A stretch of DNA of 64,000 nucleotides. Source: Bryopsis sp. KO-2023 (taxonomy: Eukaryota; Chlorophyta; Ulvophyceae; Bryopsidales; Bryopsidaceae). The stretch covers positions 2,232,001-2,296,000 of the forward strand of contig BSYQ01000003.1 in assembly GCA_030272585.1 (NCBI GenBank), in the 5' to 3' direction. Positions 15,501 to 50,556 of the stretch are shown here, in pieces. A program made the position numbers and the translations under genes. Under the pieces are notes generated by a model. That model did no database searches, was not told the origin of the DNA, and saw only the letters and a program-made list of their open reading frames with translations. Each line of letters begins with the position of its first letter. The stretch's first letter is position 1.

Positions 15501-18500
15501 GCAATACCTTGTCACGTCCATGTCGTAAGCACAGCCATCTTGCACAGATATCATTTCAACTGAACAAGCAAGTTTTGGAGGGCTACGGACTCAGCATCGA
15601 TCCCGAAAGTATTCCCAAGCTTCAAGGTGCCCCAGACTACGAATCTCTGGAAATGACGCTTTCGTTAAACACCAGCAAATCAAAAGTCCCCAACGGGACC
15701 CTGGATCTGGTGTTCCCCATCGAGATCAAGTTTGGGCCTGCTATTCTGCTGGCCATCAAAGCACAAATAATGATGCCTGAGATTAAGGTCTCAAGCAACG
15801 TCTTGGAGTTTGGAGAAGTGCAAGTTGGCCACTGCAAAACTATTCCAGTAATGTTTTCGAACCCGAAAGATGTTCCTTGTGAATGGTGCATAAAGAAACC
15901 GGTCGAGTCCACCAAAGCGAAGGACTGGCAGTTTTTCCAGTTCGACCCTCATGAAGGCTACCTTGAGCCTGGAGAATCGACACTTGTGAAGGTGGGGCAC
16001 CAAAGCCACTGTCAAAACAGCTGCACTTATCTGTGGCTCGTTCATGTGGATCCACTGAGATTCAATTATTGGTTTTCAGATCTCCTTCACGCCGGCACCA
16101 AACAGGGATGCTCCTTACGAGCAGGGGATACCAATCAAGGTTAACAACTCCAGCAAGAGTATCAGTATTGACGCCATTGGAAGGGGACACACGTTGCGAC
16201 TCTCATTCGACAAAAACTCTGTTGATCTTGGCGCAATAGTCCCTGCCTTTGAAGGGCAGGAGTCCAGAATGCAAGCCGTAAACATTATCAATCCAAATGC
16301 CTACCCCATTGAGGTGGTTTGTCTAAACTTCGATGAGCGCTACAGGAGCGATGATCAAGTCCTGCGAGATTACAAGCAGTAAGCCCCTGAACTTGAAAAA
16401 AAACACAACTGTTTGAGAAATACATTGAATCTGTTCCCTGTGACGTGTCTCACACGCGATAGCAAATTTATATGTGTTGCATTTCATATAACCCCTCCGT
16501 TGCGGGAAAGCGGCGAAGTGGGGGCCGGAGACTTAAAAACCATGTGTTTGTTCTTAAGCTTCGACGAAGAGGACAATGCATATTTCCCACCCCTCAATCC
16601 TGGCGTGGATCTGTGGAGTGATCTTGTCACCACCCCACAAGATATCGAAACCGGCGATGACGTTGCCACTGAAGATAATGTAAGCCGTGCACTCTCTCGG
16701 GCTTCACCATTCAAAGCCTCACAAAATGCTCAGGAATGGACCTGCTTTTTCTGTTTTCCTCCCAGTTTGTCTGTTTCCTGATGCCACGCTGTTGTTTATC
16801 CAGGGAAGTGATGGACAAAACCAAGGGGATACTGATCTCAAGGACGACTTCAGTGCAGAAGAGAAAAGCCTTGACAGCAGTAGAACAGCAAGTCAAGGAG
16901 AAAGTATGCCCCCAAAGAAAGATCGTGTGATCGTGATTGTGCAAGGGCCACCCCATTCTGGAAAAACCACGCAAGCCAAGAAAATGTCTTCACGGTACAA
17001 TATCCCCGTCACGACCTTTGATGGACTCATTGAGGTGAGGATCTCCGTTTAATGCCACACTCTTGCTCCCCGGGAGTTTTAAAGTTCCCGTTTAAATCTA
17101 TTTGGCCGGAATTGTGTTTGATAATATAGCCTGTGTTGCAGGATGCCCAAGAAATCGAAGCTACGGCCGACCTTGAAGATCTCAACGAAGAGGTTTCTGA
17201 AGCCTTGTCCCAATTCGATGTTGAGCTCACGGTGGCAGACATTGTGGTTGAGATGTTGACTGGCGGTGTTGATATCCACGAAGACGAACAAAGAGACAAT
17301 CTCCCAGAAGCATACTCAAACCTTTCCCCAGAGGCCCAAGCAGACCTGCTCCTCTTTGCGCTCCGAGCAGGAATGAAGACATCGAAACATGAGAATGGTT
17401 TTGTGATTGATGGGCTGGCTTCGCGCTTCCTTCAGCGAAAGGTATTTGACACCAAATGATGCGATTCTTTAACTCCCAGCCAAGAGATGCAACATCTGTG
17501 GTGATATGAAGGTTCAGTTTTGTTTGGATGCAACTGTTAGGACGTAGGAGAGCTTTTGCTGCTTTCGATGGGCCTCAGAAAGGAGGAGATCGAGCCGGAT
17601 GACAGCCAGGGAGACCAAGAAGATGATTATGAGGAAAACCTGGAGAGGTTTACATGGGCACCCTCTGAGGAGTTCGATGATAAGATCTTCGTGATCGATT
17701 TGAGCATGAGCTGGGAAACATATTCCAACAGATATCTCAAAATCCAGAAAGGCAAAGAGGATTCCAACAAAACTGAATCCGATGGCAATAAGTCAGAAAC
17801 TCATGAGGAATCCGATGGAACGAATGATGACAACCAGCAAGCGAAGGAAGTTGATTCCGAGATTGACGCAATCGAGAAGATGCCTTCTGAGGCTGGTTCA
17901 GCGATGATGGAGAGTGAGGTACCCAATCATTCCTGATGTCTCAATCATGAGCTCAAGAGTAAAATGACACTCAACACTTTTCCTATTCAGGACAAGGAAA
18001 CTGATGAGGAGGAAGGGGATTTGATACTGGACCCAGAAACTCAAGAACTCCACGATGCTTTTATCCGCGAAAGGGACGAGGTTGAAGAGATAGCCCCTGT
18101 CTGGGGAGATCAACTTCACTCCTCGAATTGTGTTCGCCTGAGAACCGTGGAAGTCGATGAGGAGGAAGAACAAGTGCACAAGAGAGTGTGTGGGATCCAA
18201 TTCAATTTGGGAACCATAACAACTGCCATGCCCCAAGTCGAGGCAGACAAGGAGATAATCCCTGACCCCTACACACTGCAGATTGTGCACAGGTTGGTTT
18301 CTGCTTTTACCGCTCAAGATCTTTATCGAAGAAATGCCAAAACTCATCGCTAACTACCGGTTCAATTCTTTTACAGACCAAAATCAAGGATAAAACGCCA
18401 GCCAATAAAGCGATTCAAAATAATAACTCCATGTGAGAACGAATCTCAAGCCAGTGGAAGCGATGCTTTGGTGGAGGAGGAGGAGGAGGAGGGGTCTGAC

Positions 18501-21500
18501 ATACAACCCAAGCGTTCAGAGCAGTCCCGATGGATAATTCAACCAAAAGAATCACAGCCCCTCGTTGTTGAGTTTTCATCTGAGGATGTCGGGAGCTTCC
18601 AGGAAACTCTGGCGTTCGAAATCGTGTGCCCAGGAGCCCCCACACGTCCAAGCTCGGGAAATGTATTTGTCTATGGTGTTTGTGACTATCCCAGAATAAG
18701 CGAAGATTATCGAAGCGTTTTTTATCGGAAGACAAGAGTCCGTCCAAGATCCCCTTTGGTATCTCGCCAATTCATCATATCTAGGGAGAGGTTTGAGTTT
18801 GGACCCCTGTTGGCTGGGAAAACTAATGGAGACAATGAAGACGATACAAACCTGGAGAATTGTGGAAAATTCCGAATTCTCAACAATGGTTTATTTGACC
18901 TTCATGTTGATTTCGTGTTGGAAAGCGCAAACTCTGTCGCAGACAAGGGTCCCCCTGCAAAAGGTGGAAAAGGGAAAACGGAAGCCGCTCCGACTACTCC
19001 ATTTTCTTTCGATCCAAAAGCAATGGACCTCGGTGTTGGTGAGATGAAAGACTTGCTGGTGTATGCCTTTCCTGGCGATGTGGGGGAATACGAGGATGTG
19101 ATCTTGTGCCAAGTTGAGGGAAATCCAAACCCTGTTACATTCCCCTTGTCGTGTGTGGGGTCGAAACCAGCTGTTGTTTTGAAAAGCAGCGAGGAGGAGC
19201 TTCCAGAAGGGGAGCAAGACGAGGTAATGGGCGTTGGGACTGATTTGGGAAAGTCTTTCGAGCCAATTTTGAGCTCCACCTGACCCTTATCTGTATATTG
19301 TGCAGATTTACTCCAGTGGCATTGTGTTCGATCGCCTCCTACTGGGACGCACTGAATTGAAGAAGTTCAAAATACACAATACGGGGCTGTTACCGTTCAA
19401 GTGGAATCTTGAAGGGGCTGATAAACTGGCAGAGGAGTTCTCCGTGTATCCTTCCAGTGGGGCAATCGAAGCTCGCAGTTACGTCGAAGTCACAGTCGAA
19501 CTCAACGCAATGGATACCATCAAGGAGCTGAAAGAGGTCATGAACGTCCAGGTAGTACTCTTTGTACAAGCAATGTCATGGAGGTGAAAGCGTCATAGTT
19601 CAATTCTTGTTTTTTTAAAACACTGTCTTGCCTTCACAAAGGTAATAGATTGTCAAGAGCTGCAAGGGATTGTCCACGACATCCCCATTCAACTGAAAGG
19701 AGAAACGTACAAAATCGAGGTGGACCTGTCCGACCCATCAGATCTTATCGACTTTGGGACGGTTCGTGTATGCGATGATGGCATGAAAAACATGACGATC
19801 ACCAATCGAGGAAAATATGCCGTCGACTACAGCTTCTTGCTAAAATCCCCTTTGGTGAAAGAGATATTCCGAGTGACCCCCGCAGAAGGAACCATTGAGC
19901 CAAGCAAAAATGCTGTCGTTGAGGTATACTTCGCATTTGAGAGAGAGGCTACCACCTGTGAATTTATTTACCTGGTCCGACAGCGCTACAACACTGTATT
20001 TGTGACATAGGTGCATTTTAACCCCGAGCACAAGCTTGGACATGAGATTTGCCTGGCTCTGGACCCGGAAGTCTTTCTGTCGATTTTTGAGCCGATGACT
20101 GGGATGAGAGAACTCCACTTTCCCATCCGACTGAGCGCGAATGCTGTGTTCAGCAAGTACGCTTTGACTCCAGCCAGAGGGATTAATTTTGGATCGATGC
20201 AGTATGACACCACATCTGAGCCTCGCACGTTCCAGATTTCAAATCTGGGAGAGTTTCCTTTTGACTTTACGCTCACGAACAACAGCAAAACGGACGATAC
20301 ATCCGCCTCGCCACCTGAAAAAGGTAACCATCGTGTGAAAACAATAGTGCTGAAAATATCCAAGTGGATTAAGATATGCTGAGGATGCTCGTGCGTGGTT
20401 CCAACTGTTGCAGGCAAGGGAAAGAGCGCGGCGGCAGACTCGATTGAGATTGGGGCGTTTACTATCGTTCCATCGAAGGGCACTATCGAACCGGGTAACG
20501 TAGCAGAAATCGCTGTGACATTCCAGGCCTCTGGGAGCCAGTACAATGGCGAAGCAATTAACATTGGGATCTCAGAGATGGATCCTTCAGACAGTCCCAG
20601 TGGAATCGTGTATGAGGTAGCCGGGGAGTCTTGCATCCCTGGAATAGATGCCCAAAATATTGATGCAATCTTTGAGGAGCATTTAATATCCCCTCAGCTG
20701 GATCCGTTCAATCCTGTGAACGGGGAGTTTGGGAGAAAAGAGAAAGCTTTCAACTTTGGTGCTGTCACTGCGAGGCTTTCTGGCGGAGAGTCGACAGATG
20801 AGGTCAGTTTGACAACTTACAGGCACCAGTGTGGCCACCCGAAACATCCAGCCAAGAAGTGTTTGAAGTTTTTTCCTTCCCACCTGGTATTGTTTCTGAG
20901 ATAACAAGTTGGGGTGTTGGTGGAATCCAGCAGGATGACGCGAATTGCGTGAAGGCGAATTTGAAATTCATCAACCCCGTCAAGATACCTTCCACAGTGC
21001 ATTTCTCGATAAAACCACAAGGAGAGTGGACATCCAGAAGTGGTGAAGCATATCCTTTTGTTGTCAAACCGGAGAGCGTTACAATACCACCTCATGAAAA
21101 CACGTACGTTAGCGTGTACTTCATGCCAAGAGCAATTCAGTCTTTCGTTGCTACCCTGGAGGCCACTGTTTCGATGGGTTGTGATCAAGACACAAAGGGG
21201 TTCTCCTGTCAAGTGCGGGGGGAAGGGATGCTTCCATCCCTTACTTTACAGGTGGGGCAGATACCCAGCTCCACATGCCTTTGTTTAAGTCTTCTTGGTA
21301 TATTCTCATGATGGTTGTGTATCTCAGGTGCCAACGGTTGACAGCGAAAACAAGCCAATTCTGAATTTCCCCAGAATGATGAAAGGCAGGAGCCAAACTC
21401 TCCCTATCCATGCCAAAAACAACGGGATATTGCCGGCGACGGGGCGAATCGATATGGAAGCGCAAGGAGCATTCCAGCTTGAGGGTGGATGTAGGACATT

Positions 21501-24500
21501 CACTCTGGAATCCAAAAAGTCGCTTGCTTTCAACGTGGAGTTTGCTCCTGAAGATACGGGTGTCTTTGAGCAGGAAGTCCAAATTAAGGTAAAAGGATCG
21601 CTGAACACATATTGTGGCTGCCTGCCTCCACACTCTTTTTCAATATTCAGTCCAGCATGTGTGCTGTATAATCCAGGTTCGAGAGAATCCATTCGAGTTG
21701 TATCGTGTGAAATTGATGGGGGAGTGTTTTGTGGAGAATATCGTGTTTGAGGGGCTGACTGACGACTCTGATGATCAACTGGATATTGGCGATGTGCGTG
21801 TTGGCGGCGAGAAAGAGGTGTTCTTTCGGCTGAGGAACAACTCCAGCGAGAATTACAGGTACTCAAGTCCCTTCTGAAAAAACAAAACAAAATATGAATT
21901 TGATGGTGCAATGTTTTCTCAAATATCTTTTTTTGATGCAGGTTTTCCTGGCCGTCAGCGCCGAATCTCGAATTTTCTCCCTCTGTTGGCCATATCCATA
22001 TTGGTGCAGCGAAAGAGATTAAAGCTATATTCAAGTCCGATGAGAAAATCAAGCTTGACCCAGCAGACATTCACCTTGAGGTTCAACAGATCTCCTATGT
22101 GGATGAGCCAATTGAGTGGGACAACGCACTCCAAAATTCCGACGCACACGAAGAACAGGAGTCATTGCCTGAGCCAGAGCACACCCCTATGGCAGGAACT
22201 GCGAGCGACCGTGTCCTAAAAGTAGGAATAATTGCTACCCAATCTGGGGACTTTAAAGTCATCTGGCATCTGATCATAGGGAGCAACCAGGTTCCCAAAT
22301 ATTTCTTTTTGTCACCAGGCAGCTGGAGTTCTATCAATTACGTTAAACCCCCCCCCCACACACACACACACACACGATAGCACATACGTTGCACTGTTTT
22401 TCGACAGCCAGAATCAATCGAGGCCAGTATCATCCACTCCCCCCCCCCCTCTCCCCCTTTCCCAAAACCAAATAAAAAAAAGGGAAAGTATTGATGTATG
22501 GATCAGTTTATTCTGGTCCCCGAGATCAAAACTGGTTCACGCCCATGCTTCTTAGAGTTCCTTGTGTTGCCCAGATATTTGCTGTCGCGGACGAAATCCT
22601 GTACGAGTGTGACTCTGCACCGATAAACTTCAGGCCAACCATGATGTTCCAGAGCAGGTCCTTCCCCTTCACATTCACAAATCCTAGCACTGCAAAAATG
22701 AACTTCAGGTGGGCTTTCACTAACATGGATGGCACACCCGACACGTCGGGCCTGTACACAGTAAGCCCTGAAGGGGGAATTGTCGACGGCGAGGGAAATG
22801 TCGAGGTAATTATTCCTGTTCTTGATCAAAAACAGCTGGACTATTACTTCAGCTTTCAAGTGTGCGCAATAAAATTCTTGTGTTTGCCAGATTGTGGTCA
22901 AGTTCAATCCTGAGGAGGTTCAAGATTGCCGTCGGACGTTAGTTTGCACGATACCCAACCTCTCTGATGATGCTACTCCCTTGTTTCGCCCCGTCAATGG
23001 AAGAGTGCTCCGACCATGGTGCCATTTCGACCTTCCAGAGTCGGACTACATATCCTCCGGAAGGAGAGTAGCGGAAATGCCCGGACCAAGCGGGGGTTTA
23101 GACCCACCTGATCCAGCAACCAAAGTGCTGGAGCTGGTTTCGCTGGGGGTGAAAGTGAGAAACACCAAGCGGTTTCATGTGCTCAACCCGACCAATATCG
23201 CCTACGAGTTTTTCTGGGAGCCTATCAAGGTGGGAAAAACGAAGTGGGCGCCAATGAGTTGAAGCTTAAGGTTTGGATGTTCTCACGATATGATATTTAA
23301 CTTTTGCCCTACGTTTGCCAATCCGCTTTACTTCTTTCAACAGGGTCCTGGTGCGCCGCCACCATCTTCTCCGTTCACGTGCATCACCCGCCACGGAGTC
23401 ATTTCGAGCGGGCGCAAATATGAGATGGCGTTCGATTTTACACCACTAACACACGATGTCCATGAAGCTTTCTGGGTGTTCAAGATTCCAGAGCACGGAA
23501 TAGAGGCCCCGTTTCTTTTGGTGGGGGAGGTCTCTGAGCCTCGGGTTTCCTTCGACCGTCCATCGATCAATTTTGGAAAACTGCTGATTGGTGCACGCAG
23601 CAGGGTCCCAGTATCGCTGGTGAACGACGAGCATCTACCTTTCACCTTCAAGCTGGTGAAAACCACCTTCGAGGCTAGTGATGATGTCATAAGAAGCACA
23701 GGTATAATTCCCCCTAGTGCTCAAATCATTGGCCCAGGAGCTTTCAGCAGCAGAATTTGAAAAGTTCTTTGTCTCTTGCCTTTTTTCAGGCAAACGACCA
23801 ATCGTTGAGTTCAATCCATCTTCCGGTATTGTTCCTCCAAACTCCCGGCTCGAGCTCATCGCATGCTTCCGACCGCGCCTGGAGGAGTCCATCAACTACA
23901 ATGTCACTTGTATTGTGGCGAAAAAGCCACAGCCACTGACGGTGAATGTCAAAGGGGAAGGTTATGTTATTCACTCCTCCGTGCAGATGGATGGACCTGA
24001 TGGATCGATCGTTGAGCTATCAGACGGTGTGATGAACAACATCAGTTTCGGCCAGGTAACCCCCCCAAAAAAACTTTAAATAAAGAAGGAAGGAATGGTC
24101 GATAGGTTTTGAAGCTGCCCATCCTTGGATAAAGCACGACCCCATGTTGTCTAAGTGAGTGATTGTGGTCGACCCGAAGGTCATCATCAACGAGAGGTGC
24201 ATCAAGCAAATAGCTTTGGTGAACTCAGGGAATATCAACTATGACTTCGTCTGGAGCATCGGCACCAATCCGAGAATCACAGTACACCCAGAAACAGGGT
24301 CTGTCGCACAAGGCGAACGCTTCGTGTGCGAGCTCTGTTACAACCCCCATGTTCCAGAAAAGCTTGATAACTACAAAGTGACTTGCTCGATTGTGAACGG
24401 CCGGCGATACACGATGAACTTGATGGGTGTCGGCCACAAGCCCCGACTGGATCTGAGCTTTTATCGCCATGATTTCGGCATGGTATTTATCAACGAAGAA

Positions 24501-27462
24501 GGCATGGCTCCTGTTACAAAGATTCTGAGGGCTCGAAACGACGACAACAGAGAAATCAGTTTCGATGTCCTTTTCGAGAACAACGAGAACCTACAGGTCA
24601 GTGATAAAGCAGACGAAAACCTTTAGCAGTCAAATCCTTAATGGTGCAAGAACGAACTCGTCGCATCAGAACGTGCTCGTTAAAGCCAGGATGCAAACTC
24701 AACAACATATCGCAAAAATCAAAACATATTGAAGTTCTCCAAATGTGAAGTGCAGAAGCTAAGTCATGAGAAATATGGTTGCTGTGCATCAACAGATCTC
24801 ATGCCCACCCACCGTACTGGGTCCAGGAGAGTACAAGGACATTATGATTTCGCTTTCTCCGAAAGCGGCTCAATTGTACCAGTTCACTGTACCTCTGGAG
24901 ATCAATGGACTGTACACGTTGAATGTGTTCATCCGTGGGGAAGGAACTCCTATGCGAATTGAGCTTCTAAAGCCATCCGACCGTGCTCTAAATCTGGGAG
25001 CTATAGGGCCTTACCACTCGTCCACAAAGGTGGTCAAAATCGCAAACAAGAGCAGAATTGCAGCGAACATTTCATTGCAACCATCGCTGGCGGCGCTCGA
25101 GGCCCTTGGAATCGACATATTGCCGAGTACAGACCTGTTCCTCCGTGGGCGTGAGTCTGGGGACGTTACGTTCTTCTTTCGACCACCAGGAAGATTGCCA
25201 CCGTTTGCCGAACCTTTCGAGATTGAAGTTTGTGGAGTGCGCATCCCAATTTTGACCCTATCCGGAGCGTGCTTGGGGACTGAAATAAGACTTGCTAGCA
25301 GCACTCTTCCTTTTGGAGCAGTCACTAGAGGATCAAGGTCGTGCAAGAGGCTGCAGCTCGAGAACACTGGAGATGTTGGAACACGATTTGTTTGGAACAC
25401 TGGTGGTCTTGGTCAAAACTTTAGCATCTTTCCCCAGGATGGATTTTTGCCCCCTGGTCGCGATGTGAAGCTCGAAATCGCATTCCATCCCGTCGCGGTA
25501 TCACCAGATATCCGAGTGGAAAGGGTTCGCTGCAAAGTTGATGGTAAGACAGCCACTCTTCAGCTCTACTTTGGTTCCCTTGCTCATTTGCTTTTCTTTT
25601 TCTCTCTTTGTTTTTCTTTTTGGGGGGGGGGGTTGGGGGTTTGTTGAGAAAACAAGTACCTTGCACAGCAGGTAGCATCTTCGTTTCACCATTATTCACA
25701 GATATTTTGCTTTCGTAGGTGGAGAGGATCAATTCCTGACGTTGACTGGAGCTTGTGCTGAAAGCCAGCCACAGTCGGAGGCGGTGGTGTTCTCGTGTGG
25801 TGTTCGCAGCACCACAGAAAAGAACATAACGATTGAGAACGCATCTGGCGGGACATGGCAGCTCAGGCCCGCAATACAGAACGATTACTGGAGCGGTCCC
25901 GAGTTCTTGACAGTTCCTGCGGGAGGAAAAGCGGATTACCACCTGACGTACAGCCCGTTAATGATGTCGTCACAAGACCAACCACACAAAGGATCCGTCT
26001 TTTTCCCTATCCCCGATGGCACAGGATTGCTGTATAGCCTCGAGGGAGTGGCAGATTCTCCTGTCGCTGAGGCCACTGTTGAGCAGACAGTTCCAGCCAA
26101 GTCGTTGCATATTGAAGCCCTCAGAGTCCACAATTGGCTACAGAAGCCCCAGAGGTTCCGCGTTGATATAGAGCGTGTCCAATGTGACGAATCGACATCT
26201 GCTCAGGTGCAGCAACCCTTCTTATAAAAATGAACTATCCAGGTTCTTGTTGCATTCTATGCTTTATTCATCTATTTTTTTTATTCTGATCTTTTCCGTT
26301 GGCATCTCATAGGGACCAGAGTATGTGGATGTTCCACCCTTGAGCAGCAAGATGTACAAGTTGTCCTTCTACTCCTACACTGAGAACGTCAGTATTTTAA
26401 AGGTCACTTTCACCAACGAAAGTACAGGGGAATTCGTTTTCTATGACGTGAAGCTGGTGGCTTCAACCCCACAATCCCAGGGTGACGTGCATCTTGAGTG
26501 CCCAGTGCGTACTCAAGCCACGCAGAACATCAGCATTAGGAATCCCTTGAGCAAAGATGTCGCTGCGACGGCTTCGTGCAATAATCGTCAGGTGGGCTCC
26601 GTCTGCTGCTGGGGTTAGTTTGGAATGGATTCATGGAAGAAACATCGCTCAACATGGAGTTGAGCAAACTCGAAGAGCCTAAGTCTGAAAAATGGACTCT
26701 GTGTGGCGTTGTTTTCAGGTTTCGGTGGCAGGAGACATTGTTCTGAAATCCAACTCGGCAACTTCGATTCCTGTGGCGTTCCGTCCACTGGTGGTTGGAG
26801 AGGCATCTGTGCCCCTCACTTTACGGTGCCCTGAACTGGGACAATACGAGTACAATCTTGAGCTGAAGGGCGTCCCCGCAGGACCTGAACGATCTCTGAC
26901 TTTCAACGTGCCCCTCGGAAGCCTGGAGACGCAAGTGTTCCGTTTCACCCACTGGCTACCAGATAAATGCGAATACAAATGTTATTTCAAACGCTCGGGC
27001 ACGACAGCTGCTCCCGATTCCCCCTTTTCTGTCGTTCCTACTGTGAAGGCTGAAGCTGCCGGGGCCAAGGGTACCGAGCTGGAGGTGGAGGTGTCGTTTG
27101 AGCCGATCATGATCGGAGAAAGCGCCAGGGACGTTCTTGTGCTGGGAGCACCAAACGCGGGAGAGTATGAGTGTCCCGTCGTCGGCAGCTGTGTGCAGCC
27201 TAAACCTCAAGGGCCGATCGACTTGTCGAAAGGCTCCTCTGGTGTACCGTTCAAAAATGTTTTCGGAACAGAGGTGGAGTTTTTCTATTCTGTGGAGAAC
27301 GCATGTTTTACGGTGAAGGCCTCGGAGAAGATCGCCGCCAAAAAAGCCGTTTCCATTCCAGTTTCGTACAAGGACAATGGATCAGGTGTATCCACTGGTC
27401 GATTGACTATCACTTGTCCAAACCAGAGCGACGCTCAATGGGTCTTCTATTTGAAAGCTTGA
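9519..27462 (+). CDS. HYDIN: HYDIN, axonemal central-pair (C2) protein
   Basis: Giant ciliary protein, a string of ASH/MSP-like beta domains on the C2 microtubule of the central pair. Exons: 9519-9860, 9949-11181, 11268-11885, 12033-12332, 12519-12914, 13036-13316, 13448-13815, 13923-14110, 14200-14436, 14506-14678, 14754-15171, 15297-15440, 15548-15991, 16080-16378, 16559-16679, 16804-17034, 17142-17441, 17541-17918, 17991-18292, 18377-19223, 19306-19551, 19642-19923, 20011-20323, 20414-20802, 20931-21251, 21328-21588, 21677-21858, 21942-22221, 22575-22805, 22891-23229, 23344-23701, 23790-24055, 24180-24596, 24796-25543, 25719-26206, 26313-26591, 26719-27462. All phases agree, giving about 4,590 aa against 5,121 in human. 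It is collinear with recalled human HYDIN from PLFEPIPQEIVF to the WVFYLK end. The true start is open: TACCAG before the KTPSRQ codons looks like an acceptor, so a 5' exon may exist. Confidence 0.95.
16804..17441 (+). other. P-loop (adenylate-kinase-like) segment inside HYDIN
   Basis: Two HYDIN exons encode an NTP-binding-like module. The Walker A loop is GPPHSGKT, preceded by the hydrophobic strand VIVIVQ. A later FVIDGL strand sits where NMP kinases have a Walker-B-like strand. Human HYDIN has the same insertion at the same place (GTPLSGKS). The acidic region that follows (17541-18292) is low complexity. Whether it binds nucleotide is unknown. Confidence 0.85.
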
Positions 27463-31735: not shown

Positions 31736-34700
31736 TCAGTCAAATCCTCCACCGAAGTCCACAGGATCAGGAGGGGCAAAGCCTCCACCACCACCAAAGT
31801 CCACTGGATCAGGAGGGGCAAAGCCTCCATCACCACCGAAATCCACAGGATCAGGAGCCCCATAGCCTCCACCACCACCGAAATCCACAGGATCAGGAGT
31901 TCCATAGTCTCCACCCCCCCCACCAAAGTCCACAGGATCGGGGGCATCAAAGGGGGGCGGCGGTGGTGGAGTCGGGGGTTCTTGCAAATCAGGTGTACCA
32001 AAATCTGAGGCGCCATCGTACCCAGGTTCTTCAACAGCACCAAAATCTGGTGCTGATTCATAACCAGCATCGGACGCACCACTATCGTATGCAGGTTCTT
32101 CAACAGCACCCAAATCCGGTGCTGATTCGTAACCAGTGTCTCCACCATAGTCCACCGAAGCCTCTTGAGCTCCATAATCATCAGTGGTGTCATCAGGGCT
32201 TGCATAATCGGTGTCCGCTTCATCAAAAACGGGGTCTTGGGCAGCCTCACTGGTTTCGAAAGGGGTTTCCTCAGGAGGAGCATAGTCATCAGTGGTGTCA
32301 TCGGGGCTTGCGTATTCTGTGTCCACCTCATCAAGCACAGGGTCTTGGGTTTCCTCAGGAGCATAGTCATCAGTGGTGTCATCGGGGCTGGCATAATCTG
32401 TGTTTTCCTCATCAAACACAGGGTCTTGGGTTTCCTCAGGAGGAGCATAGTCATCAGTGGTGTCATCGGGGCTGACATAATCTGTGTTTTCCTCATCAAA
32501 CACAGGGTCTTGGGTTTCCTCAGGAGGAGCATAGTCATCAGTGGTGTCATCGGGGCTGGCATAATCTGTGTTTTCCTCATCAAACACAGGGTCCTGGGCA
32601 CCCTCACCGGTTTCAAAAGGGGTTTCCTCAGGGGCATAGTCATCAGTGGTGTCATCGGGGCTTGCGTAATCTGTGTTCTCCTCATCAGACACGGGGTCCT
32701 GGGCCGCCTCACCAGTTTCCTCAGGAGCATAGTCATCGGTGGTATCATCGGAGCTTTCGTAATCTGTGTCCACTTCATCAAACTCAGCGTCTTGGACCTC
32801 CTGATCATCACTTGATTCAGATGCAATGTCCCCAAATGAGGTTTCCTCAGTGCCGAAATCTTCAGTGGAATCATCAGATCCAGTATCCACATCGCCTCCG
32901 ACATCCTGAACACCCTCCTCATCTGTTGATTCAGCTTCAGTGTCCTCTCCAGAACCAAACAAATCACCACCGGAATCCTCAGCTACACCATCTGTAGGAG
33001 TTCCAAAATCAGGCTCCGAATCGTCAACGGGATCCTGGACAGACTCGTCAGTGGAGAGATCTTCTGATGTCCCCCCTTCGTCGATGATGGGGTCTTGATC
33101 AACCTCAGCATCTGTTCCATCCACATCAGCTCCACCATCATCAGTCGCATCGCCATCGGTCCCCTCACCATCAACTGGATCAGTAACGTCATTGCTTTCG
33201 TTTCCTTCCTGGGTGTCATCCCCCTCTGTGTCGTCGGTGCCCTCATTGCCCCCATCCTCTGATCCAGCTTCTTCTTTGACGTTATCCACAAGAACATCAA
33301 AAAATCCCTTCCCACTGCTGTCCTCCTCCTCCCCCTCGAATTCTTGCTGGTCATCTTTGAGATCTGTCTGTCCTCCTGTGCTCGTATCCCCTGGGTCCCC
33401 CTCCTGATCTTTGGGAAGCCCCGGGTCTGCCTCCGGATCCTTGGTATTGTCACCATCCCCGGGGTCCCCCTCCTGATCTTTGGGAACCTCCGGGTCCGCC
33501 TCCGGATTCTTGGTATCGTCACCATCCCCTGGGTCCCCCTCCTGATCTTTGGGAAGCCCCGGGTCTGCCTCCGGATCCTTGGTATCGTCACCATCCCCGG
33601 GGTCCCCCTCCTGATCTTTGGGAACCTCTGGGTCCGCCTCCGGATCCTTGGTATCGTCACCATCCCCTGGGTCCCCCTCCTGATCTTTGGGAAGCCCCGG
33701 GTCCGCCTCCGGATCCTTGGTATCGTCACCATCCCCGGGGTCCCCCTCCTGATCTTTGGGAACCTCCGGGTCCGCCTCCGGATCCTTGGTATCGTCACCA
33801 TCCCCTGGGTCCCCCTCCTGATCTTTGGGAAGCCCCGGGTCTGCCTCCGGATCCTTGGTATCGTCACCATCCCCGGGGTCCCCCTCCTGATCTTTGGGAA
33901 GCCCCGGGTCTGCCTCCGGATCCTTGGTATCGTCACCATCCCCGGGGTCCCCCTCCTGATCTTTGGGAACCTCTGGGTCCGCCTCCGGATCCTTGGTATC
34001 GTCACCATCCCCCGGGTCCCCCTCCTGATCTTTGGGAAGCCCCGGGTCTGCCTCCGGATTCTTGGTATCGTCACCATCCCCCGGGTCCCCCTCCTGATCT
34101 TTGGGAACCCCCGGATCCGCCTCCGGATCCTTGGTACCGTCACCATCTCCTGGGTCCCCCTCCTGATCTTTGGGATTCGTCTCCGGATCCTTGGTACCGT
34201 CACCATCTCTTGGGTCCCCCTCCTGATCTTTGGGATCCGTGGTATCCCCAACATCAGATCTCTGCTTGGTGCGCTGGCCTGTAGCCCCATCACTGGGATC
34301 CTCATTTTCCTGTTGGTCAGTTGCCCCATTTTTAAAGCCTGCATCATCCTGGCCTGTGGCTTCCTCATCCCCTCCACCACCGCCGCCCCCGCCGCCCCCG
34401 CCGCCCCCGCTGCCACCACCACCGTCATTCGATCTCCGGTTAAAGAGTCCCTTTATTTGCTTTTTGCTCACATCCTTTGCCCCCTCGCTCTCCTCCACCT
34501 TCATGACCAAAAGTAAGACTCGGAAAAACGCGTGCTCATTGACAACAGGAGCAATTCTACCTACCGAAACATTTTTGATCTAAAAATTGTGCACTGGAAT
34601 TATGCACAAACAGCTTCAATTCGAAGATCCTCCAGACCACAGCGATTTAAAAATAAAGAAAAGAGTCCAATTATTTTTTCTTTTTTAGAGCCAAAAGATC

Positions 34701-37700
34701 CAAGATAGAGGAAAACCCAGAAAAGTTTGATGTGCTGGCTGGTGAGAATTTCTGGTGTGACAGAGCTTTTCAAAAAATTCTTCAAAAGAATCCCTGCTCC
34801 ATTGCTTACAATATTTTCAAAGCAATTCAAGGGCTGGTTTTTGCCTTCGCACTCCTGCACCAGAAAAATATAACACGTGAGGATTTATTTACTTTATTTT
34901 TATCGTGGATATTTTGATATCAACAATAACTCAACAATATCTGAAGTTATCATCATACCAGGCATAGTATCCTATAATTTCATCTACATAAATTTAATAT
35001 TGATGTTCCCTTGTGAAAATTCAAGGTTGTTTTTCGTCTTTTTGAAAGATATCTCTCTCTTTGATGTTGAAAACTTCCAGAAAAAAAAAAGAAAAAGAAA
35101 GGAAATGCACACACACACACACACTCACATTTTTGTAAATCTGAGACAGACAACCAAGCTGATCCCCGAGCTTTTCCTTGTCACAGTCCTACAACAAATA
35201 TAAAACAAAATAAAAACAAAGAGGAAAAAAAAAAATCTTTTGCTTGTACGCTGATATCCTTTTTCCCCCCAGTTCTTGGTGCGGGGATAAATGCCCACGA
35301 AAAATCAGCCAAAGCAAATTCATATGAAGATCCCCTCCCCCATTTCCAAAACAGCATGTGGTGGAATCAAGCATTCCACCCCCACCCCCACCCCAGCAAG
35401 AAAACCAGCTGCCTTTTGCATGTACTGTTGTTTCATAACAATAATAATATTAAACAGGGTGTTTCATATTGAAAAGAAAAACACAAACATGGATATGGAT
35501 AAATCCCCCCCAGAAATTGAAATTGAGAGTGAATGCGAATTCCAGTAATGATCAATCATCACCCATGTGATTCCGAGTGTCAGCATTTTGAACCATGCGT
35601 CATTACCTTGACTTTTTTTAGCGCTGGTACTTCGCTGAGATCCGCCCCTTTTCCCTTGCAGCAATCCAGCCTTTGCTGATTGGATCCTGTCAGACATCCC
35701 TACATACCACCTTTTCATCTTCATGTCATGGCCATTAGCTACACCAATCAGGATTCAGCTCTGTAACTTGTCAGCAATTTTTAGTTTTGAAAATCTGGCG
35801 GTCATCGCAAAACTGTAAAGAGTCACTTTGTTTGTTTCTGTTTCTGAATTTCCTTAACACAGATGATTCGAGAAAAATCATGCCGTCTGGTGAAAAAAAA
35901 ATTGGCATGTTGTTGAATTATGCATGCAAAAGATTACCTTGCATCCAGCCCTGAGCATAGTGCAAGACAGCCATTTGTCGAATGTGTCAGGTTTCCTGCA
36001 CGAACTCTGCTTTCCCAATTCCTGAATTCAAAAGCAAAAATATAAACAAATGGGCAAAACAAGAGTGCTCAAAAAACTGAAATAGACAAAAAAACCCCAA
36101 CAAAAAACGATGGTACAGGGACGGGGGAGGGGGGGTCGTTTTTTTGCAAGGTGGAAATAGCACCTGGCCAGGGAACAAATAACTATAGATGATAAATTCT
36201 TCACTTTCTTCTTAAATAGGTACATTAAAAGAGAAAAAAAAATAAAAGAAACGCAAAAATAGCACCGCAAAGAGGATATGAATTCTGAGCTCATGGATTA
36301 TGACTCACCCCGCTGTCAGCCCCTTGATTAGCAGAAGATCCTCCAGATCTTGAAGATCCTCCAGACCTTCCTCCACCTGGTTGAATAAAAATAATGGGTC
36401 CACTAGAGGAGCCTCGTGACTGTGGTGCCGGCCTCCCACCACTCGGCCTGGTGTTTCTCTGAGGTGGTTTTCTCTGAGGCGGTTTTCTTTGAGATGGCTT
36501 TTTCTGCTTGGACTTTCCTTGCTTCTCCTTATCAGCAGAGCCCTTATCATCATCGGAACCCTAACCAAACCCAGACAGACTTAATCTAGAATTTACAAAA
36601 AAAAAAGAAACAGAAACAGAAAAAACTGAAGCCCAACCACCCTAAATCTAAGATTCTTGTTCTTCCAAAAGCTTTATCTTTTTCGGGGGGGGGGGGGGGG
36701 GGGGATTGAAAAAAAAAGAGGAAAAAACAACACCACAAAAACGTATTTTAACAAAACTACAAGAAACAAAAACCACCATCAAGTCATTTCAGATCCAGAA
36801 TATATATATCAGCCTCAAACAAATCTTTTAACTACGTTCTTGTGAGGAACAAAAAAAACTGATAATGACAATAATACTTCCAAACCAGAATCAAATCACC
36901 TTTTGATTTTCTTTCTTCTTTTTGTTCTCGTCCTTTGTTTCGACGATCGATTCGCCTTCCCCCTTTTTGGCAATCCAAGCCGAAAAATCGCTTACACTCG
37001 TGTAGAACCCAGGTCCCTTACTGCCGTCGCAAGTCAGAGGCCCGAAAGAGGTGATCCCAGCAAGAGTATCTCCAAGGAGCAAAGGGCCCCCAGAATCACC
37101 TGCAAATTTTTTTTAAAAAGAAAATATCACCTCCCAAACACCATTAAATTCTGTGTAAACTGCACCAATCAATATCGGAGGGAAAAAAAAAAAAAAAAAA
37201 AAGAGAACCCATGTGACACAGGCAATTTGATCTTCACCTAGGTTTTGAATAGCCCATCCTCTTCTCAGCAGGGCTATAAATATTTAAGAGACATTAAAAA
37301 ACATAGATTGCAATTTCTGCCCCTATATATATATGTGTGTGTGTGTGTGTGCATCAGATCCACACAGGCACTGCATTAGACCCCCCCCCAAAAAAACCAA
37401 CCAATTGTTCGCCTATGTCAGTCATCGTACCAACACAGGTGTCTCCACCGTTCGGAGCCACAGCACAGATCACGGTGGTGGCAGGAAACTCAATTTTGCT
37501 GTCCTTTTTGCACTTTTCCAGGTCCACAAACTCCAGCGTCTTGAGCTCTTGCAGTTTTTCGGCAGATTTCCCCCCTTGGGTTCTACCCCACCCAATCGCT
37601 GTCATTTTCGTGCCTCCGCCGGACCTTTGAAAACTGAGTTGGACTTTTTGTTTGCTGGAGGCCTGATCCAGCTCCAGCAGAGCGATGTCATATCCATTCG

Positions 37701-38654
37701 TAGTCTGCCCATTCCATTTGTTGTGTATAATTCTCCGTCGGGTTTGCCGGACCTGAATATGAATGAATAATTTTTTTTTACATTAGTCAAACTTGCCCAA
37801 CGAAGGCCGTCGTACAACGAGGTGATTTAGCCCAAGACCTTGGGAAAAAATTCAGCTCAATATGATCAGTTCTAGAACACCCTCCACAGTTGTTGCATCT
37901 GAGATAAACACCTAGCACAAAAATTCCGTGAAAAACCTTCATCGGGGAATTATATAACCAGGATCTATATTCTACATGAGGCATTTCTTTCTAAGGTTAT
38001 TTGTTGGATCTCAATCCACCATCGGCTTATATTTGCATGAATTTTCTTTTTGTGAAACAAAAAATGAAAAAAAAAATGAAATGAGTTAACCCTTCAGCAT
38101 CATTTCAAAAATCTACTTTAAATCATGATAGTTATTTGCTCCGTGGCCTTGAATGACTCGATGCAGTTCTACTCTGATTACGAAATAAGTCGAGCCGGAG
38201 CCACGTCAGACGAAACCTTCACTTTGACCCAAGCGCTCTTTGCGTGCTTTGATCAGACTTCTTAAAACAAACGATAATCCACTCACATCAGCGCTAGGAT
38301 CTCCGCTGTTTTTATGTCCTCCGATTTGGACCTCAGGGAAACCGACGGTATGCTTGATATTGGGGTCGACGCAATGGGCGGCGGTCACCACATACTTGTC
38401 ATCCACAAGCGATGCCCCACAGAAAACGCCTCCATCGGCTTTTTGCAGCGACGCCATGAACGGATATTTCCCTCTGTCGGCTTCTCGACCACCCTAGACA
38501 TATTTTTTGGTCAAAAAAAGCTGCGTTAACAGCTATGCTGAAGGAGGGAACTACCACCGATCTCCCAAGAAAAGGGTCGGTTTTTTCGACCAGGGATGGA
38601 AGATATGTGCGCGCTTTTCCAACACATTCTTACCGCTATTTTATCGACCTTCTC
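31736..38654 (-). CDS. Trypsin-like serine protease with Cys-rich module and very long acidic repeat tail
   Basis: Predicted secreted S1 protease of at least 1,345 aa. Exons from the high end: 38634-38654, 38287-38493, 37431-37752, 36900-37099, 36309-36560, 35938-36021, 35607-35675, 35129-35188, 34810-34854, 34565-34579, 31736-34498; all phases agree. The mature N-terminus reads KIAGGREADRG. The triad is complete: His in TAAHC, Asp in YDIALLELD, Ser in GDSGGP. Asp lies six residues before that Ser (GGDTCVGDS), so Lys/Arg cleavage is expected. A basic Pro/Gln/Arg linker follows, then four small Cys-rich exons with nine Cys, a poly-Gly run (34375-34425), and three acidic repeat families ending in GGFD. 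The signal-peptide exon is unresolved: 38771 gives a hydrophobic start (MCLLKLLVLSG), 38820 a longer frame that splices better. It lies tandem behind IFT52. Confidence 0.8.
31739..31960 (-). repeat. C-terminal Asp-Pro-Val-Asp-Phe-Gly repeats of the protease-like protein
   Basis: Five units of PDPVDFGG plus a variable Gly-rich end (GGGF, GGGY or GDGGF with AP). They form the last 65 residues of the protein. Confidence 0.85.
32165..32800 (-). repeat. Second acidic repeat array (SPDDTTDDYAP units)
   Basis: Seven units with the core DTDYASPDDTTDDYAP followed by EET and a linker such as QDPVFDEEN; some carry an inserted PFETGEGA. The units are 23-30 codons long and lie in frame in the protease tail. 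They are rich in Asp, Thr and Tyr. Confidence 0.85.
33390..34233 (-). repeat. 69-bp tandem repeat array (23-aa acidic units)
   Basis: Thirteen copies of the block KDQEGDP, eleven of them in full 23-residue units. A unit is KDQEGDPGDGDDTK followed by DPEADPGLP or DPEADPEVP. From the N-terminal side the endings run GVP, GLP, EVP, GLP, GLP, EVP, GLP, EVP, GLP, EVP, GLP. Most neighbours alternate, so the recent expansion was probably in 138-bp dimers. The first unit is shorter and diverged. Confidence 0.9.
36684..36703. repeat. Poly-G run
   Basis: An uninterrupted run of about 18-19 G in an intron of the protease gene. It could form a G-quadruplex and is a likely spot for assembly length error. 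Confidence 0.8.
37780..37876 (+). repeat. Dispersed repeat, copy 1 (partner 46251-46346)
   Basis: About 97 bp begin acattagtcaaacttgccca and share the blocks cccaacgaagg, acaacgaggtgatttagccc and ttctag with the second copy, in the same orientation. This copy lies in the protease intron just upstream (in gene direction) of the exon 37431-37752. Confidence 0.8.
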
Positions 38655-39209
38655 CTGAAGGAGATTGCGTGGTCCGTGGTGGGTGACGCCTGTATCCCCC
38701 GTTCAAAATCAAGCGAAGTTAGCCCAAACGGAACGATACCCCGAAAGGACGAGCAGCTTCAGCAAACACATTTCGAGATGGTGCTACGAACCTCCACAGC
38801 CGCCGCTCCAAAAGACACATATTCCAAAAATACATATTAACAACCAGTAAGTCCTTCCATGAACGAGCCTCATTGTGTTGGGAGATATGGTGGGCAGGCC
38901 ACTCGTGTTTGGCGATCCTCGAGGTGGGGCAGGGTTTTTGACCGTGTGGGGAAGGGGGTCGTCCTATCATAGAGGTCCCATCACATTCAATACAAACAGG
39001 ACTTCGACAGGAGCCAGGTCGTCGTTGCTAGAACTCCCACACACAACTGTGAAAGAATTTTCTCGAACGATCACATCCACGGATTCATACAAATGCCCAA
39101 AAGCCAACGTTGTCCCCCTTCTACATCGGATCATCCCCACACCTCGTCCCTAACTCTGTATACTTGTACAAGTTTCAAACCCCAACCCTAATACGTCCCC
39201 CTCCCACGC
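38655..39209. other. Spacer between the protease gene and IFT52
   Basis: Holds the unresolved signal-peptide exon of the protease gene, somewhere in 38710-38820, its promoter, and the IFT52 3' flank. The flanking genes run in tandem on the minus strand. Confidence 0.5.
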
Positions 39210-40919
39210 TCAGTAGTCACCATGCATCATTTGCATCATTTGACCGGCATCGGACGGGACCATCTCTCTCGAACCCCCGCTCCCAAACGCAGCCCCGGCC
39301 ATCTTGTAATTGACGACTCTGGAGAACACTTCAGCCAGGATCGCTTTCCCTGACGCCTCCCCAGTCGCTTTGGTCCCGAGAATATGGGCACACTCTTGAA
39401 CGTAGTACTCCAGGTCCTGGGGTCCTTTGCACTTGTTCGTCAGAACGGCTAATCGCACGTGCTCGTCTGCGAAGTGCTCATCCAAATCGAACAGTTCCAG
39501 TGCAGGTGGCGGCGGCTCTCGAATTGCTGGCGGAAACACAGCCGGCTGAAGCGGGGGCAAAGGCGTCTCGAACTGCGGCGCGATAAGCGTCAGTGGTGCC
39601 TTCTTCACGCCCAATTTGTCGTATAAGTCCATAGCTTCCGGGACCAAGGAGACGTCGAACTGAAAGAGGCGGTCATCGAACAATTTCGTCCAGTCTTTGG
39701 GCAGCTCTTCACGTCCCTGCGATTTTCAGTATGCGTTTCAGCAAAAACTATGGGGAAGGTACAAAATAAAAAATAACGAGCACTGAAGGAAGGAAGGGGG
39801 TGTTCTTCTCAATATAAGTCACCTGCAGACAACATTTCGGGCGCTCCGCCAAGGCTTCCGTGTCCGGCAGATGTTTCACATCTCCAATATTTGGGTCCTC
39901 TGCGTCGTGTGGGTCGAGCTCGAGTTTCGAGTTGGGCCTCAGCCACTTGAAAAGAAAGTCCATCAGCTTCGAGTTTTCCTCCTTATCGATCCACTTGTCG
40001 TCGAACAGCTGAACGGACCCCAGCGCCGCGATTCTTCCGCTCCCCTCTTTGTGCCACACAGCGCCTGTGGAGGAGGTGAAAAGGTACCTGAGCCAGGCAT
40101 GCAGTAGATGGTGTAACATACACCAAATCCGAGAGTCCCCAGACCATTTTCCACATTTCTCAAGTCCAACAGACACGAACAGCTTCAGATATGCATACCA
40201 AGAGGCCTGTGCATTGGATACGCAATCCCTCCGCTCGACAAAATCGGTGTGGACGGTTTCTGAACGCTCAGGGTTGCTCCATATGGATACACGAAATCCA
40301 GCCCCTTTCCATCGAAATCGTCCCCACCAAGTTCCTTCGTGTCGTCCAGTTCGTTTGTGTCGAGTTCAGAAAGCACCCCACCCTTGGACTTAGCATCGCT
40401 TCCCCCCTTTCCAGCCCCGATTACCACCCCTCTGTTCACAATCCCATCAGAAACCAGCACCTCCTTTGGGTGCATGTATTTATGATGCACCATTCTCACC
40501 ACGAAATCGGGATTGACGGCGATGCCAAATTCCTCGAGCATATAGTTCAGATTGGTGCATGATTTCGTTTCCCCCCCTTCGGCCATCAACACCAGAAGCG
40601 CCCCTCCTTGAATGACGTAATCCCGAAGAGTTTCCAGCTCTGCTCGGGTGAATTTCTCGCAGGGACATCCAAAAACGATCAGGGCAGCATCTGCGAGGTT
40701 CTCTGGGTTGATGTCGTCTCGACTGTCGAGTTTCTCAGGGCGAAATATCGACCTCAGCCGTCGGAACAACTGCTTGAACCCTGTCTTGTGGGTGTGCGTT
40801 TCCTTCATGCAGCAACTGAACAGAATGCGATTCGACTCCCCTATCGACCCCTGCAAAATTAATGCCAAGTTCGTGAGTGGGATGCACACACAAGACGACC
40901 GCCCCGACGTCTCACTCAT
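39210..40919 (-). CDS. IFT52: Intraflagellar transport protein 52 (IFT-B core)
   Basis: Core subunit of the IFT-B complex, needed to assemble cilia; it bridges IFT-B1 and IFT-B2. Exons: 40199-40919, 39823-40064, 39210-39716, phases consistent, 489 aa (family usually 430-455). The N-terminal GIFT-like domain shows EKFTRAELETLRDYV, GGALLVLMAEGGE, MLEEFGIAVNPD, HHKYMHPKEVLVS and YPYGATLSV, all at family positions. The middle has DKWIDKEENSKLMD and the C-terminal part FETPLPPLQPAVFPPAIRE, then LELFDLDEHFADE. The first exon contains an in-frame stretch of 39 bases (gtgtgcatcc to ttttgcag) that looks like a tiny intron; removing it would give 476 aa. Head-to-head with PI synthase, 462 bp apart. Confidence 0.95.
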
Positions 40920-47423: not shown

Positions 47424-50400
47424 TCAAGGACTCCAAACAGACTCGGAAAAAATATCAGGGCTGAGCTCCAACTCGTTCGCATCCTTCTTCCAATACTCGC
47501 TCCGGAAATCCCACGCCGACCGACCTTTCCACCCCATCGTCTTCACCAGCTCCTTGTCTGACTCATCCCTCAACCCAAACCACACAGGGCTGTACTTCAA
47601 CCCGGCCTCCTTTCTAACCCTGCGAGTGTGCCTTTGCTTTTCTTCCAATCTCAATTTCTCGCTGGTCGCCACTTCGAACTCCCCGTTCTCCAGAGCCCTC
47701 ACATCGGGTCGAAATCGCGCGTCCGTTCTAGCAAGCTGACTCATCCCCACCCTCCTGACATCATTCAATCCAATCGCGAATTTAGTCATGTTGTATTGCT
47801 CTTCGCTGTCCTCCGGCGGCTCGTTGCAACGAAACACTTCCCTGGCCTCCTCCCCGTCTGACGACCCGCTCCTCACATCGACCGCACTTATCACGCTTCT
47901 GAAATTCCCGGACACGGTGTGAGAAACCTCCCCGGCCGAATCCTTCACGGAGCCCTCCACTTTTCCCCGTCTATCCATGTACCCTCCGCACTTGGGGAGG
48001 TTTATTGTGGCACATGCTCCGCTGGTCCTGTTAGTCACCACCACCTCCCCATAGAAATCCAGCCAGAGCCGCCCGATTATGATGTTATGTATCGAGATGT
48101 TCGACTTATTCCAAACATACCATTCTTTCCTGGCCGACAGAAACAGCTCGCAGCGTCCCGTCGGGTAAACGTACAAACTTTTCCCCCAGAATTTGCTCCT
48201 CAATTCCAGCTCCCCATGCACCTCAAACGAGGGCTCCCCCCCATTAGCACTCACCCCCCTTGCATTGAAGCAAGACACCGGCGGGTGATGACTGACTTGC
48301 TCCGCCAGCAACCGAATCCCATCGTCTTGCCACTCGAAAGTTTCCCCCAACAGCGGGTTGAATGGCTTGTTATCACGGGGTAGCCCCGAAGCATAGGAGG
48401 ATAGGGCGAAAGCCACGACGTATACCAGCCTTTGCTGGGGATCGTCGCATTCGGCAGCTTTTTCCAACAAGGAGTAATATTCGAATTCTTCGGCCACTCT
48501 CTGCAGGGCAGACAGCGGCTCGTTGATGGTGGCTGGGAGGGTGATTCGGGTGAGGTCTCGCCCGATTGCGTTTTTGAGGATGCTCCAGATGCTGAACCCT
48601 CTTCTCAATGGCCGGGGACAAGGCAATCGACTTCTCACACTCCCCGTCGGCGAGGAAACCTCCGAGTCCTAAAAAAACCCACACAGAAAAATCGAAACAA
48701 TACTCAGCATCGAAACGCAAATTCCCCTGTCGGTCGCCCCCCCACTCCCTCAATCATTCTTTTTCACTTAATGGGTAGAGAAAATTCTGCCCAAAAAAAA
48801 CATAACACTTTGGTGTGGGAAAGCAAACCCACAAGGGTCCTCCTCTCCCAACTCAGGGTCAAGGTCAATGCATTTGACTTTTCGGTCGACTCGACAGGGC
48901 TGCCAATGTGCAAAAGCATGATGGATGAATCTGGTTTCGCTCAAATTTTCTACCGACCTCTCGTCCACCCGAGCCATTATCCTCATCTTCCGGATCGTCT
49001 TCCTCCATGCCGTCAGCCGGGGGCTCCTGCCCTTCACCCTCCTCTTCGAATTCAGCATTGGGTTTTCCCCGGGTGGCATACTCCACTCTCCTCACCACCT
49101 CCAGCGCTCTTATTAACTCATCATCCACCACAGCTCGGGTGGGGCTGTCCAACGGAGTGGCCCCTGATTTCCCGGAGCCGCTCGGCTGCGCCCCCAGCAA
49201 ATCCTCCCCGTCCTGATCCGATGTTTCTGAATTATCGTCATTGAATTCTGAGTCAGCCGTGGAGTAAGTCCCCGAGGTGGCCAGCGAGGTGCCTTGCACC
49301 GGGACGCCCCCCCTGGCCAAGCTGAGTTCATTTTCTTGGATCAACGTGTGGGGGATTTCCTTCAAGCTGCCCCCGTGTCGATTCGGCCCGGCTTGCCTGT
49401 CTCTGTCCCTGAGCAATTTCCTGAGTGCAGAGTTTTCGGCTTGGAGTTCCAGCACTTTCACCACCTCGTCTTTCAAGGCTTGGTCCACAGAATTGAGGAA
49501 ATTATTGTAAGAGGTCCACACGCTGGAGGTCAGCCCTGGATTTGTCGAGGTCAAGGTTTGCGAATGCTCCACTCCAGATGAAGGGTAAGACCCGCTGGCT
49601 CTGGGGCCGAAGGATTGCTGTGGACAGGCAAAAATCTCTCCAGCCTCTTCTGATTGACTTGGGTGTGGCTGGGAGCCGCTCAGCCGCGAATTGAGCGAGT
49701 TTTCTGGGTCGGGATTCTCCACCCCCAGCAACGTCGATATTTTCGACACAGTTTCGTTGAGTCCCCGCAAGTGCTGTTCGAGGACGTCCCTGGAGGGGCG
49801 CAGCAAGGTTGCTTTCGCATACATCCGCACCCACAGGTCCCGCTGGAAGCTCTGCATCTCGGGGTCGACCTCCAGAGAATAGGAGTGACGCTCCTCCAGC
49901 CCTTTGACTTGTTTGGCGAACCCCCGCGTTCTCTCCACCAGCTCGTCGTATTTGGAAATCGACCGGCGCAGGTAGCTGACCCACATCTCTCTGTCGCCTC
50001 GCGCCAAGGTCCGCAGATACACCACCCTGTTCGCCGTGACCAGACAAAATTGTCTGACGTTTCCCCGTCCCACCACCACCGACGCTGATTTCAGATTTAT
50101 GGTCCATTCCCCGCCCTTCATGTCCGGGCGCTTGGCGTACACGAAAACCCCCGGGGTCGTCAGAATGAAAAACCTGCGGTGCCATCTTTTGAAATGGCCC
50201 AGCCAGACCCAGAGGTACCCTCTGGGAGGCGAACCCATGGACGCGTAAACAGTCGACCGTCCGACGTAACGACGGGGGTCGTATTTTCGGCGTCGAGGCA
50301 ACACTCGAGCGGACGAGAACGCGCTTTCCGGGGAGGACTGCCGGTCGTCTTCGTTTTCCCTCGGCGAATCGGGTGCGTCCGTCAACCGCCCCCCACGCTT

Positions 50401-50556
50401 CATGATTTCGGTGTCGCTGAGATGCCCGGCGTCCGTGGAGCCCTCCTCCCCTTCAAGTCCGTAAAAAGCGTTTTTACGATTGCGTCGCCAGGGCTTATAA
50501 AATTTCCACAGCACGGAGGAGCTGTGCATTGACTCGGAGCCCTCTGGCCCGGCCAT
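47424..50556 (-). CDS. ORP: Oxysterol-binding protein-related protein with PH domain (plant ORP1/2-like)
   Basis: Lipid-transfer protein that carries a sterol or PI4P between membranes at contact sites. Two exons, 48958-50556 and 47424-48668, join in phase to 947 aa. A PH domain spans about residues 112-202 (GYLWVWLGHFKRWHRRFF to MWVSYLRR). The middle is a long low-complexity linker with an acidic stretch. The ORD begins around residue 555 (FSIWSILKNAIGRDLTRITL) and has the OSBP signature EQVSHHPP at 656-663, then KFWGKSLYVYPTGR and FYGEVVVTNRTSGACATI. I saw no FFAT motif and no transmembrane segment. Length and order fit the large plant ORP1 subgroup. Head-to-head with the CCCH gene. Confidence 0.94.

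Follow-up and report, generated by a model that had tools for sequence, protein, structure and literature searches.

A candidate trypsin gene with a cysteine-rich block and a long acidic repeat tail in the green alga Bryopsis sp. KO-2023

A predicted gene on the minus strand (38873..31736) of the window, by which we mean the whole 64,000-nucleotide stretch analysed (contig BSYQ01000003.1, positions 2,232,001 to 2,296,000), joins eleven GT-AG exons, all in phase, into a protein of 1387 residues with a sole stop at its end (Table 1). The product is laid out as a leader and pro-segment (residues 1-44), a trypsin domain (45-268), a linker (269-373), a Cys-rich module (374-467), and a tail (468-1387). 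Judging from the sequence, protease and tail are likely to be parts of one gene, and it is with moderate confidence that we read the product of this gene as the secreted zymogen of an S1A trypsin, extended at the C-terminus by a part that packs or tethers the enzyme. This reading is based on features seen directly, namely the hydrophobic leader, the Lys that precedes IAGG, the trypsin catalytic residues, and exons that join in phase.

Gene model and reading frame

The exon ends of the 1387-residue model were picked by eye. The first-pass annotation of this DNA had all exons joining in phase, which the eleven junctions and the single terminal stop bear out. The arrangement that it described also stands but not its start at 38654, since the start can be moved upstream to the ATG at 38873, thereby adding the hydrophobic leader (by eye, a putative signal peptide). 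Another hydrophobic ATG start near 38771, likewise spotted by eye, lies inside intron 1 of the model and gave no better join, and exon 1 was weakly retained.

Table 1. Exons and repeat families of the trypsin-tail gene, in window coordinates.
Feature	Position	Strand	Content and support
Exon 1	38792..38873	-	Begins with the start codon and encodes the hydrophobic leader; weakest of the eleven exons, with donor gttcgt; negative codon score (p 0.16 against introns)
Exon 2	38634..38689	-	Pro-segment ending K/IA (activation site); p 0.0003 against introns
Exon 3	38287..38493	-	N-terminal part of trypsin with catalytic His; gene model, Pfam, paralogue matches, codon score
Exon 4	37431..37752	-	Middle of trypsin with catalytic Asp and S1-base Asp; gene model, Pfam, paralogue matches, codon score
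Exon 5	36900..37099	-	Catalytic Ser and protease end, running into basic linker; gene model, Pfam, paralogue matches, codon score
Exon 6	36309..36560	-	Basic Pro/Gly/Ser-rich linker; stop codon directly upstream; no in-frame ATG; another frame scores 17.1 against 10.3
Exon 7	35938..36021	-	Cys-rich module, 3 Cys; single internal ATG at 35958
Exon 8	35607..35699	-	Cys-rich module, 3 Cys
Exon 9	35129..35188	-	Cys-rich module, 2 Cys
Exon 10	34810..34854	-	Cys-rich module, 2 Cys; own coding score negative
Exon 11	31736..34498	-	Poly-Gly and 920-residue acidic repeat tail up to stop codon
Repeat family 1	33386..34235	-	69-bp period, 12.4 copies, 23-residue unit PKDQEGDPGDGDDTKDPEADPGL
Repeat family 2	32165..32779	-	7 copies of DEENTDYASPDDTTDDY core; over part of its length, periods of 84 and 105 bp
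Repeat family 3	31736..31948	-	42-bp period, about 5 copies (PDPVDFGGGGG)

Coding potential was scored with two codon models, both taking the introns of the trypsin-tail gene as background. The first was built from six single-exon trypsin loci and seven window frames (four of the ten loci, L003, L007, L022, and L031, were dropped as yielding no frame), and the second from six window frames, five of which (the same or nearly the same frames) carry an above-cut-off Pfam match, the frame at 26692-27459 having a below-cut-off match only. The predicted frame was the best of the three in all four of exons 7, 8, 9, and 10, and their joint score was reached by 0.06% of 5000 in-frame-open intron draws (p 0.0006); exons 1 and 10, taken singly, receive no support from their own codon scores. 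Exon 11 scores 13.2 in frame over its opening 29 codons, as against -1.5 and 0.0 in the other two frames.

The main repeat periods of the tail (69, 84, 105, and 42 bp) are multiples of three and other frames across the stretch are likewise long, so that open length alone is weak proof of the tail frame. Variation at third codon positions among the repeat copies supports that frame. When the copies were picked by protein pattern, 22 of the 33 variable sites were third positions (p 9e-5), a choice that is biased towards silent changes and that dropped one of the twelve family-1 copies. Copies picked on DNA alone gave 15 of 29 at an identity of at least 0.80 (p 0.03), 25 of 45 at a cut-off of 0.70 (p 0.002), and 28 of 49 at 0.65 (p 0.0005), with every copy found in one common phase; the statistic is weaker than with the protein pattern, its direction is unchanged, and the sites within homogenised repeats are not fully independent. 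Family 1, with five of its ten variable sites at third positions, is never significant alone.

That the trypsin and the tail form one gene is supported by the phase of the junctions and by the codon scores, and also by exons 6, 8, 9, and 10 offering no usable start: none of them has an in-frame ATG inside it or upstream ahead of a stop. A separate start near 34500 had been named by the first-pass annotation as a sign of two genes, and an in-frame ATG does lie at 34504, six bases before exon 11, within an open frame of 947 codons. A separate acidic-protein gene is thus conceivable, in which case a secreted trypsin, which might or might not include the Cys module, would be followed by an acidic repeat protein lacking a signal peptide and beginning MKVEESEG...; exon 10 can moreover be extended by 69 codons, its own frame being the best of the three there, before a stop is met near 34600. 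This division would, however, leave merely about 95 bases between the two reading frames, and the onward reading scores as intron (-24.0 over the 69 codons, GC 0.37), as does the stretch beyond it (-8.6, one stop). The donors of exons 9 and 10, gtgagt and gtaagc, also speak for splicing across both junctions in phase. On balance, phase and codon scores appear to favour one gene, and the division into two is considered unlikely. One gene giving two products, namely a plain trypsin ending ...NQKVI when intron 5 is kept and the tailed form when it is spliced, is less likely still: reading into intron 5 does meet a stop two codons past the complete trypsin domain, but retained introns usually reach a stop soon and no test result favours retention.

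The gene is flanked by IFT52 pieces on one side and by HYDIN/CFAP65-like frames on the other, from which the cell probably makes flagella. The former (39213-40919, minus strand) comprise the GIFT, central, and C-terminal domains of this intraflagellar transport protein; the latter (9943-27459, plus strand) are Ig-domain frames, two of the three scanned scoring above the cut-off, and probably belong to one large flagellar gene. Further along the window, an Oxysterol-binding protein domain (47427-50556, minus strand; E 6.2e-115) has a PH-domain frame ahead of it.

The protease and its relatives in the genome

The protease matches the Pfam Trypsin profile over its full length (positions 1-220 of 220; E 2.4e-46, 158.8 bits against a cut-off of 20.6). 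A PDB search returned 534 sequences at E<=0.001, the best being enteropeptidase-1 (3w94; E 2.6e-29). Alignment with the solved proteases gives the catalytic triad as H86 (TAAHC), D137 (YDIALL), and S225 (GDSGGP), and the Asp at the base of the S1 pocket as D219, six residues ahead of S225 (GGDTCVGDS); the triad and this Asp align with those of 3w94. The zymogen site, K/IAGG, has Lys before Ile and spans the junction of exons 2 and 3, with IAGG split by intron 2. The full-length domain, the triad, the S1-base Asp, and a basic residue followed by Ile-x-Gly-Gly place the protease among the trypsin-type enzymes of peptidase family S1A, and it is predicted to be active. The complete triad, the Asp at the S1 base, and the IAGG mature N-terminus claimed in the first-pass annotation are all present, and its overall picture of a secreted trypsin to which a Cys block and an acidic tail are appended appears to be sound. 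By itself, the protease part is ordinary. Searched once against viral contigs, the protease gave three pattern matches and no relatives.

The genome encodes many trypsins, and the protease is one of this large family, in which the C-terminal end varies between genes. At least 198 trypsin matches were found in the 91.1 Mb genome (28 contigs), a figure that is not a gene count because a gene of several exons can give more than one match. Among the 150 matches listed, about 115 groups can be told apart at a spacing of more than 1.6 kb, and 69 of these 150 fall in a dense cluster on contig C4 (1.29-2.6 Mb) and 17 in another on C14 (1.11-1.39 Mb). Identity to the window protease reaches 39% over about 220 residues, and 60% over about 50 residues in single-exon matches. 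In many paralogues the match is interrupted close to residues 70 and 178, both of them intron positions in the window gene. At the loci examined, 15 distinct open frames follow an exact GDSGGP, including that of the window gene itself, and the other 14 end differently; GAGQS...PFCG follows the protease in three of these 14, and some frames run on into introns.

Whether the fusion recurs was a question raised by the first-pass annotation. Within this genome, the Cys module matches only itself (E<=10), and it is the general plan of trypsin, linker, and Cys-rich end that reappears, in one paralogue spliced by eye. This paralogue, L047 (G000:C10:4024262-4025187), can be spliced in phase into a trypsin, a Pro/Ala-repeat linker, and a C-terminal exon with six Cys (L047:1130-1640); read unspliced, it meets a stop soon past the linker. 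It shares with the window gene a trypsin, a low-complexity linker, and a Cys-rich C-terminal end, and differs from it in having only 42% identity over residues 73-223, a linker of Pro/Ala, and no acidic tail. By eye, its six-Cys end is unlike the Cys module of the window gene, and it has no Pfam match. At another trypsin locus, L050 (G000:C4:519000-525500), open frames downstream of the trypsin end contain ankyrin repeats, which may belong to a fusion or perhaps to a neighbouring gene.

As to the organism itself, 107 LHC matches in the genome, the best of which are of the green type by eye, and rbcL on a contig of 91,672 bp mark the organism as a photosynthetic eukaryote and its plastid as green. 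Full polyubiquitin units, spaced exactly 228 bp apart without junction insertion, occur on contigs C1, C6, and C9, a pattern that speaks against a rhizarian origin, such as a chlorarachniophyte (Bigelowiella-like) one, and a cluster of divergent ubiquitin-like matches, mostly in open frames of about 280-355 residues, lies at G000:C17:134906-198226.

The C-terminal extension

The basic linker, the poly-Gly, and the 920-residue tail described in the first-pass annotation were all recovered. The linker has 105 residues and a pI of 10.28. The Cys-rich module, of 94 residues, is indeed spread across four small exons (7-10), with ten Cys in place of the nine previously counted. The tail has a pI of 4.05, a charge of about -275, and 34% Asp+Glu in Gly-Asp-rich units, and is probably disordered. 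Three repeat families are present as claimed; the third is more Gly-rich than acidic, contrary to the description of all three as acidic.

Searches of Pfam and the genome, and for the Cys module also of the PDB, found no homologue of this module or of the tail that would support any function. The best Pfam match of the Cys module was DUF5131 (E 0.2, 11.5 bits, below the cut-off of 28.9), and its best PDB match, 2lf0 (E 0.56), was not convincing. Repeat families 2 and 3, used as the repeat query against the genome (E<=0.1), matched only themselves; this search and that with the Cys module were run exon by exon, a procedure that is weak on short or repetitive stretches.

Proposed working and comparison with known systems

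In the working that we propose, cleavage of the pro-segment behind Lys44, for which trypsin itself may be responsible, would free Ile45 and so activate the enzyme. The Cys module would form a small disulfide-bonded block between enzyme and tail, the presumably unfolded linker would offer a possible hinge at which the two separate, and the polyanionic tail would most likely pack the enzyme in secretory vesicles or else hold it on the cell surface or in the matrix, surviving alongside the active trypsin.

The distribution of trypsin-favoured sites (Lys or Arg not before Pro, Asp, or Glu) bears on this proposal. There are 25 such sites in the 224 residues of the protease (11.2 per 100), 15 in the 105 of the linker (14.3 per 100), and 13 in the 94 of the Cys module (13.8 per 100), compared with only seven in the 877 residues of the tail past the poly-Gly (0.8 per 100), where 25 of the 33 Lys and Arg stand directly before Asp. 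Sites being so rare there, the tail should survive beside active trypsin. A bolder reading can be built on this, namely a self-resistant tethered trypsin in which the active enzyme would release itself by cleavage at its basic hinge, leaving behind a trypsin-proof polyanionic tail, within a family of roughly a hundred trypsins that gained unrelated C-terminal modules. The clear contrast is nevertheless the site-poor tail and not any special richness of the linker, where sites are just a little denser than in the protease, so that the idea of a hinge depends on presumed disorder; the resistance of the tail may be a plain by-product of its acidity, and the Cys module may be shielded by its disulfides. 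We regard this bolder reading as doubtful.

The first-pass annotation had instead seen the tail as a calcium- or mineral-binding matrix protein, with the trypsin as its processing enzyme in cis, and had likened the GDGDD repeats to calcium-binding ones. The Asp+Glu content, the charge, and the Gly-Asp-rich units agree with such a role, but no Pfam family was matched at E<=1 over the 924-residue frame, calcium-binding repeats (EF-hand, RTX, thrombospondin-3) included. Membership in a calcium-binding repeat family is accordingly not supported by the sequence, bulk acidity is all that is left of the likeness, and acidity alone is common among disordered proteins; we consider this role improbable. 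The part in scale, wall, or flagellar-surface assembly that the first-pass annotation also suggested is conjectural.

The trypsin with its linker, Cys module, and acidic tail is a credible, if unusual, domain arrangement within an ordinary protease family. Among the titles and abstract openings searched, mostly of non-subscription papers, neither a trypsin expansion nor such a trypsin fusion was found in an alga. If the fusion is real, a photosynthetic alga would be diversifying a large family of secreted trypsins via C-terminal additions, and the labile hinge and protease-resistant tail would make a simple design for siting an active protease outside the cell.

With regard to known systems, VesB, a bacterial serine protease with a GlyGly-CTERM, is reported to require its C-terminal extension (PMC6219818) and resembles the present case, as an analogy only, in that a protease carries such an extension. 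VesB differs in being bacterial, and the tail of the window gene lacks a hydrophobic stretch at its end. A further likeness is to S1A enzymes such as enteropeptidase-1 (3w94) and complement factor D: the triad, the S1-base Asp, and the pocket glycines are alike by alignment with 3w94 (by S1A family residue numbers), the Ile N-terminus follows a basic residue, and six Cys are positioned, by eye, as the three usual disulfides. The extra domains of modular S1A enzymes are mostly N-terminal, whereas the gene described here adds a linker, a Cys module, and an acidic tail of 920 residues at the C-terminal end.
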